Below are positions 22,317 to 30,965 of a stretch of DNA of 64,000 bases, in pieces; positions within the stretch are counted from its first letter, which is position 1, and every line of letters starts with the position of its first letter. The position numbers were made by a program, and so were the translations under genes. Origin of the DNA: an uncultured bacterium (lineage in GTDB: Bacteria; Planctomycetota; UBA1135; GCA-002686595); the NCBI GenBank assembly GCA_905480285.1, contig CAJQPT010000095.1, positions 1 through 64,000 of the forward strand. Reading direction: 5' to 3'. A model generated the notes under the pieces. The model did no database searches and was not told the origin of the DNA. It saw only the letters and a program-made list of their open reading frames with translations.

Positions 22317-23486
22317 TCACAGGAAGGGATCAATCGCCTTGCGCAGGTTCGGGGTCTTCATCTTCGAGATGGCACGCACCTGAATCTGGCGGATCCGCTC
22401 CAGGCTGACCCCGAGCTTCGCCGCGACCTCGCTGAGCGTGTGCTCTCGCTGCTGATTGATCCCGAAGCGCAGCTCGATCACGAACCGCTCCCGCTCCGAG
22501 AGGCGATCCATGGCGTCATGGATGCCCTCCTCCAGGGTGATGTCCTCCATCCCGGTGGAATAAACCGTCCCCTCGTCCGCCTGGCCGAGCACCTCGGCGA
22601 GGCCGCCAGAGGCGTCGTCACCCGAGCTGAACGGGGAGTCGATCGAGAGCGTCGAGCGGCTCGCAGCGAGCGCGCTCTCCACGAGGTGCTCCCCGAGATC
22701 GGCCTCCTTCGCGATCGCCGAGATCGGCGCATCAGGGCCGAGCTTGTCCACCGCGGCTCGGACGTGCTTCATGGCCTTCTGCAGGTAAACGGGGACGCGA
22801 ACCGTCTGACCGTTGTTGTAGAGGTAGCTGCGGTAGGCTTGGTTGAGCCAGTGCACGGCGTAGGTGCGGAAGAGGAGGCCGCGCTTCCAATCGAAGCCGT
22901 CCACCGCCCTGAAGAGCGCCGCTGAACCCTCCTGGATCAGGTCAAGACGGGACACTCCGAGGTGGGCGTACCTCTCGACGTTGATGATCGCGAGGTACAG
23001 GTTCCGCTCGACGAGCTCGGTCCGCATGTGATGCAGCTCGAGCCAGCGCCGGCAAACGTCATCCGGCAGCGAGCACGCGGCTGACTCCACCTCGCGATAG
23101 GTGGCGGGGTCGTACGTGATCTTCCCGTCGATATCGTCACCCGACAGCCCGGCTGACTTGAGGGCGTGCTCGAGGCGGAACTGCGCGAACTCGATGCGGC
23201 GAGCGTGACGCGCTTCCTCCACTCGGTCCATGATCGTCAGTTGATCGATCTCAGCTCGGAGCTGCTCCTCGATCGACGCCACGCCGCCGCGCGGCGAGTC
23301 GTCTCCACCTTCGGTCTCCGGCTTGCGCCAGGCGGCCGGATCGCGAAGTTCGATGTCGAACTTCTGACGGTTCCAGTCCTGGCCGCGGCGCTTCGCCTTG
23401 GAAGCGAAGCCCTCCGGCTCTTCGGCGTAGCGGTCGAGAATGCGGTCGAGCTCTTCGAGGCTCTTGAGTGATCGAGTGACGGTCAT
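22317..23486 (-). CDS. RNA polymerase sigma-70 family factor (group 1/2 type)
   Basis: The 389-residue sigma factor has a clear region 2 (LDLIQEGSAALFRAVDGFDW, then RTYAVHWLNQAYRSY for -10 recognition). Region 3 starts PVYLQKAMKHVRAAVDKLG. Region 4 contains ERFVIELRFGIN and the helix-turn-helix TLSEVAAKLGVSLERIRQIQ. It lacks the large acidic region 1.1 and the non-conserved insert of a housekeeping RpoD, and so looks like a group 2, RpoS/SigB-like alternative factor. A GGAGAA sits six bases before the ATG at 23486. It is flanked by hairpins on the 3' side and by a long non-coding 5' region, so it is likely monocistronic. Confidence 0.93.
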   Translation of the reverse strand: MTVTRSLKSLEELDRILDRYAEEPEGFASKAKRRGQDWNRQKFDIELRDPAAWRKPETEGGDDSPRGGVASIEEQLRAEIDQLTIMDRVEEARHARRIEFAQFRLEHALKSAGLSGDDIDGKITYDPATYREVESAACSLPDDVCRRWLELHHMRTELVERNLYLAIINVERYAHLGVSRLDLIQEGSAALFRAVDGFDWKRGLLFRTYAVHWLNQAYRSYLYNNGQTVRVPVYLQKAMKHVRAAVDKLGPDAPISAIAKEADLGEHLVESALAASRSTLSIDSPFSSGDDASGGLAEVLGQADEGTVYSTGMEDITLEEGIHDAMDRLSERERFVIELRFGINQQREHTLSEVAAKLGVSLERIRQIQVRAISKMKTPNLRKAIDPFL

Positions 23487-26299: not shown

Positions 26300-27502
26300 A
26301 TGAGCGACCCCGCACCCGCATCCATCTGTGACCGCGTCACCCGCGAGAGCAGGGAGGCTGAACAGCTCGCGAGCTATGCCATGCGCAGCGTGGACTCGAT
26401 CGGGCGACGATACCCGGAGTCCCCTGACCCCCACCGCACGATCTTCGAGCGGGACCGGGACCGGATCACCCACTCCACCGCGTTCCGGCGCCTCCAGTAC
26501 AAGACTCAGGTCTTCCTGAACGACGAGGGGGACCACCACCGAACGCGCCTCTCCCACAGCCTTGAGGTGTGCCAGGTGGCGCGCAGCGTCGCGGGGGTCT
26601 TGCGGCTGAACGAGCCGCTCGCCGAGGGCCTCAGCCTCGCGCACGACATCGGTCACCCGCCGTTCGGCCACCGCGGCGAGTGGGCGCTCAACGACTGCAT
26701 GGCCGAGCATGGGGGCTTCCGACACAACGCTCAGGTCCTGCGGGTGGTCGACGTGCTGGAGCGGCGGAGCCCGGATCACCCCGGACTCAACCTGACCAGG
26801 GAGCTGAGGGAGTCCCTGCTCAAGCACGAGAAGCCCGAGGACTGGCCCGACGAGTTCGGCCTCAAGCCAAGGCACCCGGTGCTCGAGGGCCAGGTCGTCG
26901 ACCTCGCCGACTCCACGGCCTACAACAAGCACGACATCGAGGACGGCCTGAGCGCAGGCATGTTCACGGAGCAGACCCTCGGGGCGGAGGTCGAGCTCTG
27001 GCGCGTCGCTCAGGCCCGCATCGAGGAGCGCCACCCAGGCTTCCTGAGCCAGAGCCCTGACGACCCGCGGCTCCAGATCGGTCGGACCGCAAACGAGGTG
27101 ATCGGGATCTGCATCGTCGACCTGTGCCAGGCAACCCTCAGGAACGTCCAGGACAGCGGCGTGGAGTCCTCTGCGGACGTTCGCGCTCACCAGACCATGC
27201 TCTGCGCCCACTCGCGCGAGGTCCAACCCATGGTGGCGGAGCTCCAGCGCTTCCTCTACAAGCACTTCTACCGCCACCCTTACCTGCAGGCCTTCCGCGT
27301 CTGGGCCAAGGCGGTGATCAGCGGGCTCTTCGACGCCTACGTCGCGGCCCCGGCCGAGATGTCGACCTGGTTCCTTGAGTGGGGCGAAGACGTGGGCACC
27401 GAGCGCGCGATCTGCGACTACATCGCCGGGATGACGGACCGCTTCGCCGTGCAGGAATACACTCGCCTCATCGGACCCGTGCCCCCGCTCGAACGTCCGT
27501 GA
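26300..27502 (+). CDS. dgt: Deoxyguanosinetriphosphate triphosphohydrolase (dGTPase, HD domain)
   Basis: This HD-superfamily enzyme splits dNTPs into nucleoside and triphosphate. The 400 residues contain the His of RTRLSHSLEV, the HD pair in LAHDIGHPPFGHRGE and a later metal Asp in VVDLADSTAYNKHDIEDG. The early FERDRDRITHSTAFRRLQYKTQVF is characteristic of the dGTPase family. Length matches the bacterial type 2 form. It probably helps balance dNTP pools. The gene is followed 77 bp later by the candidate selenoprotein gene on the same strand. Confidence 0.95.
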   Translation: MSDPAPASICDRVTRESREAEQLASYAMRSVDSIGRRYPESPDPHRTIFERDRDRITHSTAFRRLQYKTQVFLNDEGDHHRTRLSHSLEVCQVARSVAGVLRLNEPLAEGLSLAHDIGHPPFGHRGEWALNDCMAEHGGFRHNAQVLRVVDVLERRSPDHPGLNLTRELRESLLKHEKPEDWPDEFGLKPRHPVLEGQVVDLADSTAYNKHDIEDGLSAGMFTEQTLGAEVELWRVAQARIEERHPGFLSQSPDDPRLQIGRTANEVIGICIVDLCQATLRNVQDSGVESSADVRAHQTMLCAHSREVQPMVAELQRFLYKHFYRHPYLQAFRVWAKAVISGLFDAYVAAPAEMSTWFLEWGEDVGTERAICDYIAGMTDRFAVQEYTRLIGPVPPLERP

Positions 27503-27579: not shown

Positions 27580-27930
27580 ATGGCCAAGCGAATCGACTGG
27601 ATCTACCACCGCAAGGGCTGAACCAGCTGCAAGCGCGCCGACGCGTTCCTCGAGAACGCCGGCGTGACCGTCCGTGAGACGGTCAATGCAGCCAAGGAAC
27701 GAATCGGCGAGGCGGACCTCGCAGAGCTCTTCGAAGGGAGCCGCAAGGTGACCGCAGCGAAGGGCAAGAAGGTCGTCGTCCTCGACCTCGCGAAGGACCC
27801 TGACGCCCAGCAACAGCTGGCCGCTGTGGTCCTTGGACCCACGGGAAACCTGCGGGCTCCGAGCGCCAAGGTCGGCAAGAACTGGCTGATCGGCTTCAAC
27901 GAAGACGAGTACTCCAAGGTCTTCGGCTGA
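27580..27930 (+). CDS. ArsC/Spx-family thioredoxin-fold protein, candidate selenoprotein (in-frame UGA at codon 14)
   Basis: Reading from ATG 27580 gives MAKRIDWIYHRKG, then TGA at 27619-27621. The same frame then continues for 102 codons to a TGA at 27928. If the first UGA encodes selenocysteine, the product has 116 residues with the redox motif U14-T-S-C17. This falls exactly where Spx/ArsC-like proteins have CxxC (CTSC in Spx). The downstream part fits the family: KRADAFLENAG after the motif and LRAPSAKVGKNWLIGFNEDE near the end. A 13-bp hairpin starts 12 bases after the UGA (27634-27666), where a bacterial SECIS element belongs. The role is probably thiol/selenol redox chemistry; arsenate reduction itself is unproven. 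Treating UGA as a stop would leave a 13-residue fragment. Confidence 0.82.
27634..27666 (+). promoter_or_regulatory. Candidate bacterial SECIS hairpin
   Basis: Arms 27634-27640 and 27660-27666 pair (7 bp, one G-U). After a two-base bulge (27641-27642), 27643-27648 pairs with 27654-27659 (6 bp). The loop is CTCGA. The loop begins 27 bases after the UGA, inside the usual range for bacterial SECIS elements. The loop lacks a G in its first two positions, which many such elements have, so the match is structural more than sequence-based. Confidence 0.5.
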
Positions 27931-27948: not shown

Positions 27949-27989
27949 GGACGCCCGGGCTGTCTCCTTCCGGGGCAGCCCGGGCGTCC
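27949..27989 (+). terminator. Terminator hairpin after the candidate selenoprotein gene
   Basis: A perfect 14-bp stem (27949-27962 with 27976-27989) around a 13-base loop starts 18 bases after the stop codon. No clear T-run follows, but the position and stability support a transcript end. Confidence 0.6.
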
Positions 27990-28134: not shown

Positions 28135-29538
28135 TTGGCCCACACCTCCGCCTCGAGCCCGCCGCGCGCAGCACGGCTGGCGCTCGACTCGAATTCAGTG
28201 ACCCCCGTCGAGTCCGCCGTCGAGAAGTTCTTCGGGACCCTTCGCGGCGCGGACATCCCGATTGTCGCGATGGCCGGGTCGCGCTTTGCCCCCGTGCTCC
28301 GTGACCCGCAGGGTCTAGAGTTGATGTGCTTGCCAAGGCACCTCGACCGCGTCTCTCGGTTCCTCAAGCACGCCCTCGACGCCGAGGGCGCCTCCGTCGT
28401 CTGGTCGAGCCAGGCGAAGGGCACCGCCACCTTCCAGCTGTATGCCTTCTGCGGGTCAGATCGACATCACCACCTGCGGCTGGTGGTGAACACCCGCCGC
28501 CAGTGGCAGGGCGTCACCTACTTCGAAGCCAATGAGGTCTTCCGGAACCGTGACACCAGCCGGAGTCCCCAGCGGCCGGCTGCTGTCATTGGAACCCTGG
28601 CTCAGTTCTTGCCCGGCTACCTCGGATCAGGGCACATCGAGCGCGAGTCCACGACGCGGCTCGCGATGACCGCAGACACCCACCCCGCACAACTTCGGGC
28701 GGTGCTCGGCAAAATGGTCGGGACCACCGCAGCCGAGAGGTTCGTCGACGCGCTCCGCGATGAGGAGCTCTCCAGCCTCATCAAGGAGGCCCCGCGCTTC
28801 CGACGGGCGCTGCTGCGCCGCTCGCTCCTCCGTCACCCCCTCAAGACCCTGAGCGCGCTCGCCCGGCGGCTCTCGGGTGGAGAGCGCGACGACCCCGGCT
28901 TCCTCGTGGCGGTCATGGGCCCGCAAGGAGCCGAGACCCAAGCGCTGGCGGCCGAGATGAGGACCGAGCTCCGCGCACCGTTCGGCGCCAGCAGCTGCAC
29001 GTCCCTACAGCCGGTCGAGGACCCCGACGCGGCGGGCGGCAGCCCCCAGGACCGGAGCACCGCCCGAGGCTCGTCCTGGTGGCGCGCGACGCGTCACTTC
29101 CTGGAGTTCCGGCGCACGTTCCGCGCGTCCGTGGAGCCTGTTCTCCGCAGCGGAGGCGCCGTGGTGGTCGATGGCTGGGTCGACGACTGGGCCATCGAGC
29201 CCGGACGCTTCGGCCTCACGGGCGGCGGCGCGCTCGTCCGCTGGATGGCCGCCAGAGCTCGGCGGCCCGACGTCATCCTGGTCTGCTCTCCGACGTCGAC
29301 GGAGCTCATGCAGCGCCGGCCAGAGCTGTCTCGGCGGGAAGCCCTGGCGCTCACTGCAGCCTATGAGGCCTTCGCCGCAGACCAGCCGACGGCCTTCGCG
29401 GTCCCCTGCGAGGGCGACGACCAGCCCGCAGTGGACCTCGCCATGGCCGCGACGCTCGCTGGCATGGAGGCGCTGACGCCAGGCGCGGCGCTCCTGAGCC
29501 TCTCTCGAAGGGGTCAGTCCGCCGGGCAAGCGGCCTGA
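28135..29538 (+). CDS. Uncharacterised protein: nucleotidyltransferase-like N-terminus, thymidylate-kinase-like C-terminus
   Basis: The 467-residue cytoplasmic protein has a TTG start supported by GGAG six bases upstream. The N-terminal 130 residues (DPQGLELMCLPRHLDRVSRF and following) resemble the family of atypical nucleotidyltransferases fused to kinases in polysaccharide clusters. From about residue 260 a P-loop-kinase-like fold appears. FLVAVMGPQGAETQALA sits where GxxGxGKST would be, so the Walker A Lys is missing. GGAVVVDGWVDDW and PDVILVCSPTSTELMQRR recall the LID-side strands of thymidylate kinase. It is probably catalytically altered. It is coupled (TGATG) to the next gene. The fold call is tentative and the function unknown. 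Confidence 0.55.
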   Translation: MAHTSASSPPRAARLALDSNSVTPVESAVEKFFGTLRGADIPIVAMAGSRFAPVLRDPQGLELMCLPRHLDRVSRFLKHALDAEGASVVWSSQAKGTATFQLYAFCGSDRHHHLRLVVNTRRQWQGVTYFEANEVFRNRDTSRSPQRPAAVIGTLAQFLPGYLGSGHIERESTTRLAMTADTHPAQLRAVLGKMVGTTAAERFVDALRDEELSSLIKEAPRFRRALLRRSLLRHPLKTLSALARRLSGGERDDPGFLVAVMGPQGAETQALAAEMRTELRAPFGASSCTSLQPVEDPDAAGGSPQDRSTARGSSWWRATRHFLEFRRTFRASVEPVLRSGGAVVVDGWVDDWAIEPGRFGLTGGGALVRWMAARARRPDVILVCSPTSTELMQRRPELSRREALALTAAYEAFAADQPTAFAVPCEGDDQPAVDLAMAATLAGMEALTPGAALLSLSRRGQSAGQAA

Positions 29539-30965
29539 TGAGCCCGGCCGAGCTCTTCATCGACCGGTGGTACCCCGTCCTTCGGGGGGGCCCCCCGCCC
29601 GTGGCCTCCTTCGACCTTCGAGATCGCCAGGGCGCCGAGGCCGTGCGAGAGGCATGGGCCCGACTGGGGCCCGGCGAACGGATCTTGATCCGGACCCCTG
29701 GCAACGCGGCGGCGCGCTCCCGGCTCGCCCGCCTCGGAGCGCTCCTTGAGGCATCAGACTCGGCCGAGAGCTTCCTGGAGTTCGGGGCAGGACGCCGAGT
29801 CGTCACCCTGCTCCCCGCGGACGATGGCGCTGCCTTCCGGGGGAGCCTCGACCTGCTGCCCCACGACCTCCCAGGAGGCCGGGCCCTAGCGGCCCTGCTG
29901 CGGCTCGCCAGTCCCTTCAAGCTGGCCCACCGCTTTGGGCGCCCCGAGATCTCGGTCTGGACCCGCCTCGGCCACGCGCTCCCCGTCCTGGATCTCCCGG
30001 TCATCCCCGTGGACGGCCAGGTGGCGGTTCAGGTGACCAAGGCTGATTCAGATCAGCCGCTGACGGTGCGCGCCATGGACCGACGCGGTGACGCCAGGGT
30101 GGCCCTGCAGGTCGGCGTCTCGCCCGCCTCGGCAGCGTCCGTCCTTCGCGGCTCGGCGGCGCTGGCGTTCCTCAGGGAGGCCGCGCTGGAGCATCGCTCC
30201 CTGGCCTTCGCCAGCGGTGAGCGCGAGGGGTGCCCCTGGCTCGCATCGAACGCGACGGCTCCGACCTCCACGGCCCCGGGAGCGGGCTTCGAGGCCCAGC
30301 ATGCCGCTCTCCTCCTGGACCTGCTGGGGCACGGGACCGCGAGCGCACCCCTCGGAGAGATCGAGGCGTTCGTCGACGCCCGGCGGCAGCTGGACTCGCT
30401 CTGGAGAGACCACGATCCGCAGTGGCACGACGACTACTCGGGGCTCGCGAGGGCCCTCCAGCACTCGGCCGCCGGCGCTGCCGTTGATACGGGGCCAGCC
30501 CATGGTGACCTCTCCCCCGAGACGATCCGACCGGAGGCGGGCACCCCTCACGCCGACGACTGGGGACGGTTCGCCCGACAGGCGCCGCTGCTCTACGACT
30601 TGTTCCACTTCCTCACCCAGCTTCCCGGGCCCGGGCAGGCTCCCTCAGACGAGGCGTCAGCAGCGGAGCCGCCCTCGATCAAGAGCGTCTGGGACAGCCT
30701 GCGCCAGAGCCTCTCCGGAGTGGCCTTCGACGTGGTGGCCGCGAGCGGGCTCTCGAACGGCGCGCTCGCGCTTCACCTCGGCCTCACGGTCTTGGTGGAC
30801 GGCACAGCGGCCGAGATGAGAGCTCGACTCGGAAAGGAGACAGGTGCACGTCCTGGACTCCAGAGGTCCCTGAGGCAGGAGCTGGCGCGGCGTTGCCGCG
30901 AGGTCCTCGATGGCGAGCGGCGCGGCCCCTGGCCCAGGGACGACGAGCACCTCAGGGCAGCCTGA
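29538..30965 (+). CDS. Uncharacterised protein with C-terminal phosphotransferase (APH-like) segment
   Basis: The 475-residue product has a start that shares its A with the upstream stop. The first 120 residues (with GERILIRTPGNAAARSRL and RVVTLLPADDG) have no clear family. Further on, GPAHGDLSPETIRPEAG and DDWGRFARQAPLLYDLFHFL resemble the catalytic HGDLSxxN and DWE segments of aminoglycoside/choline-type phosphotransferases. The conserved Asn is replaced by Thr and the second Asp context is altered. A degenerate kinase is the best reading. Together with the upstream protein it recalls paired kinase-like proteins in exopolysaccharide or cell-surface clusters, but no glycosyltransferase lies directly beside it. 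Confidence 0.5.
   Translation: MSPAELFIDRWYPVLRGGPPPVASFDLRDRQGAEAVREAWARLGPGERILIRTPGNAAARSRLARLGALLEASDSAESFLEFGAGRRVVTLLPADDGAAFRGSLDLLPHDLPGGRALAALLRLASPFKLAHRFGRPEISVWTRLGHALPVLDLPVIPVDGQVAVQVTKADSDQPLTVRAMDRRGDARVALQVGVSPASAASVLRGSAALAFLREAALEHRSLAFASGEREGCPWLASNATAPTSTAPGAGFEAQHAALLLDLLGHGTASAPLGEIEAFVDARRQLDSLWRDHDPQWHDDYSGLARALQHSAAGAAVDTGPAHGDLSPETIRPEAGTPHADDWGRFARQAPLLYDLFHFLTQLPGPGQAPSDEASAAEPPSIKSVWDSLRQSLSGVAFDVVAASGLSNGALALHLGLTVLVDGTAAEMRARLGKETGARPGLQRSLRQELARRCREVLDGERRGPWPRDDEHLRAA

Follow-up and report, generated by a model that had tools for sequence, protein, structure and literature searches.

The locus at positions 27580–27930 of the window (by which we mean the whole 64,000-nt stretch of DNA that was analysed) raises the question of how a frame that meets a TGA at its fourteenth codon, and then runs on as if nothing had happened, is to be read. 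The TGA might end or break the gene, might be an ordinary sense codon in this genome or might be read as selenocysteine (Sec), and if it is Sec there is the further question of what the protein does.

Reading frame, internal TGA and decoding machinery

The frame lies on the forward strand, opens with ATG at 27580 and reaches its internal TGA at 27619–27621 (codon 14). This is followed by 102 codons (15–116), all sense without exception, and by a terminal TGA at 27928–27930, which is included in the coordinates of the gene. With the internal TGA taken as Sec the product has 116 residues (MAKRIDWIYHRKGUTSCKRADAFLENAGVTVRETVNAAKERIGEADLAELFEGSRKVTAAKGKKVVVLDLAKDPDAQQQLAAVVLGPTGNLRAPSAKVGKNWLIGFNEDEYSKVFG) and the motif at the TGA is U-T-S-C, TGC at 27628–27630 coding for Cys17, the putative resolving cysteine, at +3. 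The earlier note had described this arrangement exactly and had placed the TGA where the family has the first Cys of CxxC, a placement borne out by Cys-form homologues, which have TGC or TGT at this codon. The ORF finder (table 11) lists, in frame beyond the TGA, only 27664–27930 (GTG at 27664, 88 aa), as it would if the TGA truly ended translation, or had arisen as a pseudogene lesion or a base error, and either this shorter product or nothing were made. A standard ORF caller would shorten the gene to these 88 aa from the internal GTG, and it is the full selenoprotein that the comparisons confirm.

The comparisons with relatives go against a stop or lesion. TGA occupies the equivalent of codon 14 in all 30 best matches among relatives, and nearly all of these also keep the start 13 codons upstream of it. 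Across the genome collection the Sec codon is TGA at 74 of 80 loci and TGC or TGT at the remaining six, so Cys is the sole alternative at these loci. Further genomes beyond the 80 loci also have Cys at the UGA position, giving the Cys homologues by which bacterial selenoproteins are recognized, and the homologue search that the note had suggested thus turned up Cys or TGA at this codon in numerous cases. Most of the 80 loci come from Planctomycetota, and a few are in MAGs that carry the labels Acidobacteria, Deltaproteobacteria, Tectomicrobia and Bacteroidales. In the four closest relatives codons 15–116 give dN values of 0.02–0.06 vs dS values of 0.22–0.69, a pattern that points to purifying selection on the codons after the TGA.

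A family member scoring over the cut-off was found in 80 of 392 Planctomycetota genomes, and its form follows the presence of selB. Presence was called by best E-value, which in these genomes either reaches about 1e-80 or lower or stays at about 1e-50 or higher, with a clean gap between the two groups. On this basis selB is present in 68 of the 70 planctomycete genomes with the TGA form and absent from eight of the 11 with the no-stop form (Fisher P = 2e-7), and the two TGA-form genomes that lack it are MAGs estimated to be 79% and 84% complete. The Sec form with selB and the Cys form without it make a clean natural series for the study of Sec/Cys exchange. Three genomes (G205, G191 and G105) have selB yet carry the no-stop form, G105 having one no-stop copy and one TGA copy; here Sec and Cys have been exchanged while the machinery was kept.

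The host genome, itself a planctomycete MAG that is 84% complete, carries the full set of SelA, SelB, SelD and tRNA-Sec that a bacterial selenoprotein needs, as the note had proposed to check. In profile searches selA was found on contig 25 (454.5 bits) with selD directly after it, selB on contig 216 (350 bits with its pieces joined, over the cut-off) and tRNA-Sec (selC) on contig 23 (69 bits; anticodon UCA according to ARAGORN). SepSecS (PF05889) was not found in the host sequence searched, as expected of a bacterium that relies on SelA. The host selD is Sec-coded too, with one in-frame TGA in the motif CAGUAAK (L010:1531–1533, G000 contig 25), and so is selD in nearly all relatives examined. 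Taken together, the conservation of the TGA, its linkage to selB and the dN/dS values rule out a genuine stop, a pseudogene and a base error alike, and with the Sec machinery complete we regard such an explanation as highly improbable.

The frame would be equally open if TGA were read as any other residue, for example as Trp or Gly throughout the genome. Such a reassignment is contradicted by the neighbouring dgt gene, which stops at TGA (27500–27502), and by the orthologues of the 27580–27930 gene, which stop at the same place with TAG, TAA or TGA, so TGA is a normal stop elsewhere and has not been reassigned genome-wide. The alternative residue in homologues is moreover Cys rather than Trp or Gly, and selA, selB and tRNA-Sec are present; the probability of a sense TGA that is not Sec is in our estimation negligible. 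The note's argument that the TGA is not a real stop has therefore held up, and ORF 27580–27930 is, as far as sequence comparison can tell, almost certainly a true selenoprotein gene, its internal TGA encoding Sec in a thioredoxin-fold UxxC redox protein.

The hairpin after the TGA and the surroundings of the gene

The 13-bp hairpin reported 12 bases after the TGA was found at 27634–27666 (forward strand) and is a putative bacterial SECIS element (bSECIS). Its upstream arm (27634–27640 and 27643–27648, separated by a 2-nt bulge) pairs with 27654–27666 around a 5-nt loop, CUCGA. The hairpin begins 12 nt and the loop 27 nt after the TGA, and the 54 nt after the TGA fold with -20.5 kcal/mol. The published bSECIS model asks for a loop 16–37 nt after the UGA, a minimum free energy of at most -7.5 kcal/mol and a G as the first or second base of the apical loop (PMC13188914). 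When the hairpin is compared with this model, as the note had advised, the spacing, stem, loop size and energy all agree with it, but there is no G among the first two loop bases, and the best G-loop alternative in the gene reaches only -4.9 kcal/mol. This failure does not exclude Sec coding because some bSECIS elements are known to break the loop-G model (PMC13188914).

Whether the fold is more stable than chance depends on what is shuffled. Dinucleotide shuffles of a 71-nt stretch including the TGA gave an unremarkable z of -0.54, whereas shuffles that keep the protein and the gene's own codons gave z = -3.2. The same synonymous shuffle applied to 91 Sec forms gave a mean z of -1.14 for the stretch beyond the TGA, vs means of +0.09, -0.65 and -0.42 for three control stretches tested in the same way and -0.64 for 12 Cys forms, the last difference being borderline (P = 0.047). 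A fold of -7.5 kcal/mol or better that obeys the loop-G rule is available to about 79% of Sec forms, GUU being a common loop among them, vs 55% of synonymous shuffles. Codon choice in the stretch beyond the TGA thus favours folding into a hairpin. The exact pairing is not kept between relatives (61% of cells paired), its covariation is weak (more cells pair when it is slid by -2) and RNAalifold found no consensus structure among the relatives, so the case for the RNA rests on the codon-shuffle tests. Rfam gave no match anywhere in the window. We infer that the hairpin is probably a SECIS with an atypical loop.

The selD gene of the host has a textbook bSECIS (GUG loop, 33 nt after its TGA), and Sec coding, textbook bSECIS and the place directly downstream of selA are the same for selD throughout the genus. 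The selB product of the genus (L002, G000 contig 216) matches the SelB model only at positions 1–358 and 536–581, and many other planctomycete selB genes match it nearly end to end. The SECIS-binding C-terminal part of the genus SelB may therefore have diverged, with a possible bearing on the atypical loop. We advance only tentatively, and as a rather doubtful proposition, a class of bacterial SECIS that lacks the early loop G (with loops such as CUCGA and CUGGA) and serves the ArsC-like gene in this planctomycete family. If true, the same SelB would read a G-less hairpin in the ArsC-like gene and a textbook G-loop in selD. The atypical loop in itself is a small-scale test of what a SECIS must offer to SelB.

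No neighbouring gene accompanies the family throughout; the commonest cluster of neighbours occurs at 14 of the 80 loci, and a gene of the size of dgt lies directly upstream at only six. Beginning 18 nt past the stop codon of the selenoprotein gene, at 27949–27989, there is a perfect 14-bp inverted repeat (GGACGCCCGGGCTG / CAGCCCGGGCGTCC), which is not a classical terminator as no T-run follows it. Two ORFs further on (28135–29538, 467 aa, and 29538–30965, 475 aa) overlap by one base and have no match in Pfam or NCBIfam. On the reverse strand 22317–23486 encodes a 389-aa sigma-70 (RpoD-like) factor, which scores below the cut-offs of the RpoD models and above that of the general sigma-70 superfamily.

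Fold, active site and proposed function

An AlphaFold2 model built from 45 family sequences (pLDDT 88, pTM 0.80) predicts an ArsC/Spx-type thioredoxin fold, and on this model we assign the protein to that group. The top Foldseek match in the PDB is Spx 6gho (E 1.7e-4, probability 1.00, but TM only 0.54 and rmsd 6.6), and the best matches as a set (E 1.7e-4 and weaker, TM about 0.5) comprise Spx, YffB and ArsC-like proteins, with glutaredoxins and NrdH ranking after them. Invariant in the 45-sequence alignment are Y9, R11, U/C14, C17, G86-P87 and G89-N90-L91-R92-A93-P94. In the model Sec14 directly precedes helix 1 (residues 15–27). The L-R-A-P motif at residues 91–94 (codons at 27850–27861, forward strand), with its presumed cis-proline, would by alignment to Spx be the cis-Pro loop.

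From these features the following scheme can be proposed. SelB and tRNA-Sec(UCA) would decode the UGA of codon 14 as Sec, helped by the hairpin just downstream, to give the 116-residue protein with its ArsC/Spx-type thioredoxin fold. Sec14 and Cys17 (UTSC) would form the redox centre at the start of helix 1, Sec14 acting as the attacking nucleophile and Cys17 resolving the intermediate as a selenenyl-sulphide, while the LRAP loop would face this centre and dock the substrate. The enzyme would turn over as a thiol-disulphide (or peroxide/sulphenate) reductase, with a cellular thiol as the donor that regenerates it. The catalytic roles given to Sec14 and Cys17 are thus predicted ones, and among the functional options a thiol-disulphide or peroxide-type reductase with a Sec nucleophile and a resolving Cys17 seems to us the likely one. 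As a whole the data are very probably best explained by a Sec-decoded UGA, assisted by the hairpin, in a gene for a UTSC reductase of this type with the ArsC/Spx fold, which would be neither an arsenate reductase nor an Spx regulator.

Relation to Spx, ArsC and known selenoprotein families

Spx of B. subtilis (PDB 1z3e, 3gfk and 6gho) shares the fold and gives the best Foldseek and sequence matches, at about 20–24% identity in the Foldseek alignments, and its CxxC lies where the 27580–27930 protein has UxxC. With Spx as the closest solved structure and the UxxC at the position of the Spx redox switch, the protein might be thought a redox-sensing regulator that binds RNA polymerase. However, it scores only 31.4 bits with the Spx/MgsR model TIGR01617 (cut-off 75.05) and ends about 15 residues before Spx, which has a longer C terminus, cysteine in place of Sec and RRP at the cis-Pro where the present family has RAP. 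Selenocysteine in any case usually serves turnover rather than sensing, and we consider a regulatory role of this kind unlikely.

The ArsC-type arsenate reductases (PF03960) and YffB belong to the same superfamily and have the same fold, and related families have been called arsenate reductases in older papers (PMC1088965, PMC2398784), so that a genuine Sec-containing arsenate reductase has both the sequence and structural matches and the names in its favour. The Pfam ArsC score is nevertheless 20.6 bits, below the gathering score of 24 (Pfam Glutaredoxin is passed narrowly, 26.6 vs 22.9 bits). The residue before the cis-Pro, Ala93, is invariant in the 45 sequences, whereas the aligned Spx chains and 2m46 have Arg there. 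In ArsC the Arg before the cis-Pro binds the oxyanion, and RAP in place of RRP would remove it, which makes arsenate reduction unlikely. The present protein also has a second Cys, invariant in the family, and to our knowledge classical ArsC is without one. True arsenate reductase activity thus appears decidedly improbable, and a thiol-disulphide or peroxide-type reductase is the reading that we prefer.

The ArsC family (seleno)protein class that the earlier note mentioned turned out to be NF041106 (ArsC_rel_Se_1). When searched against NCBIfam, the read-through protein matches the 'ArsC family (seleno)protein' model over profile positions 1–107 of 107 with 132.3 bits (curated cut-off 85 bits). 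The family has Sec or Cys at the first UxxC/CxxC position, here supplied by TGA codon 14 with Cys17 after it. By these sequence measures the gene is a Sec-coded member of NF041106. A 2026 review (PMC13188914) already gives NF041106 as the 'arsenate reductase-like protein', a UxxC selenoprotein family, and credits it to its reference 61, apparently the Global Ocean Sampling study (PMC2398784); the protein is therefore not novel but a further member of a known, catalogued selenoprotein family. ArsC-like selenoproteins had been reported as early as 2005–2006 (PMC1088965, PMC1794560). The 'Arsenate reductase 2' selenoproteins of the Global Ocean Sampling set (cd03032, 42 sequences; PMC2398784) resemble the present protein, by their published description, in being UxxC and ArsC-like. 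With NF041106 itself the likeness is full length, with Sec at the same UxxC position in a family widespread in Planctomycetota, and there is no difference of substance, the genus of the window being set apart by the atypical-loop hairpin downstream of its TGA. What the locus adds to this known family is a well-supported planctomycete clade.
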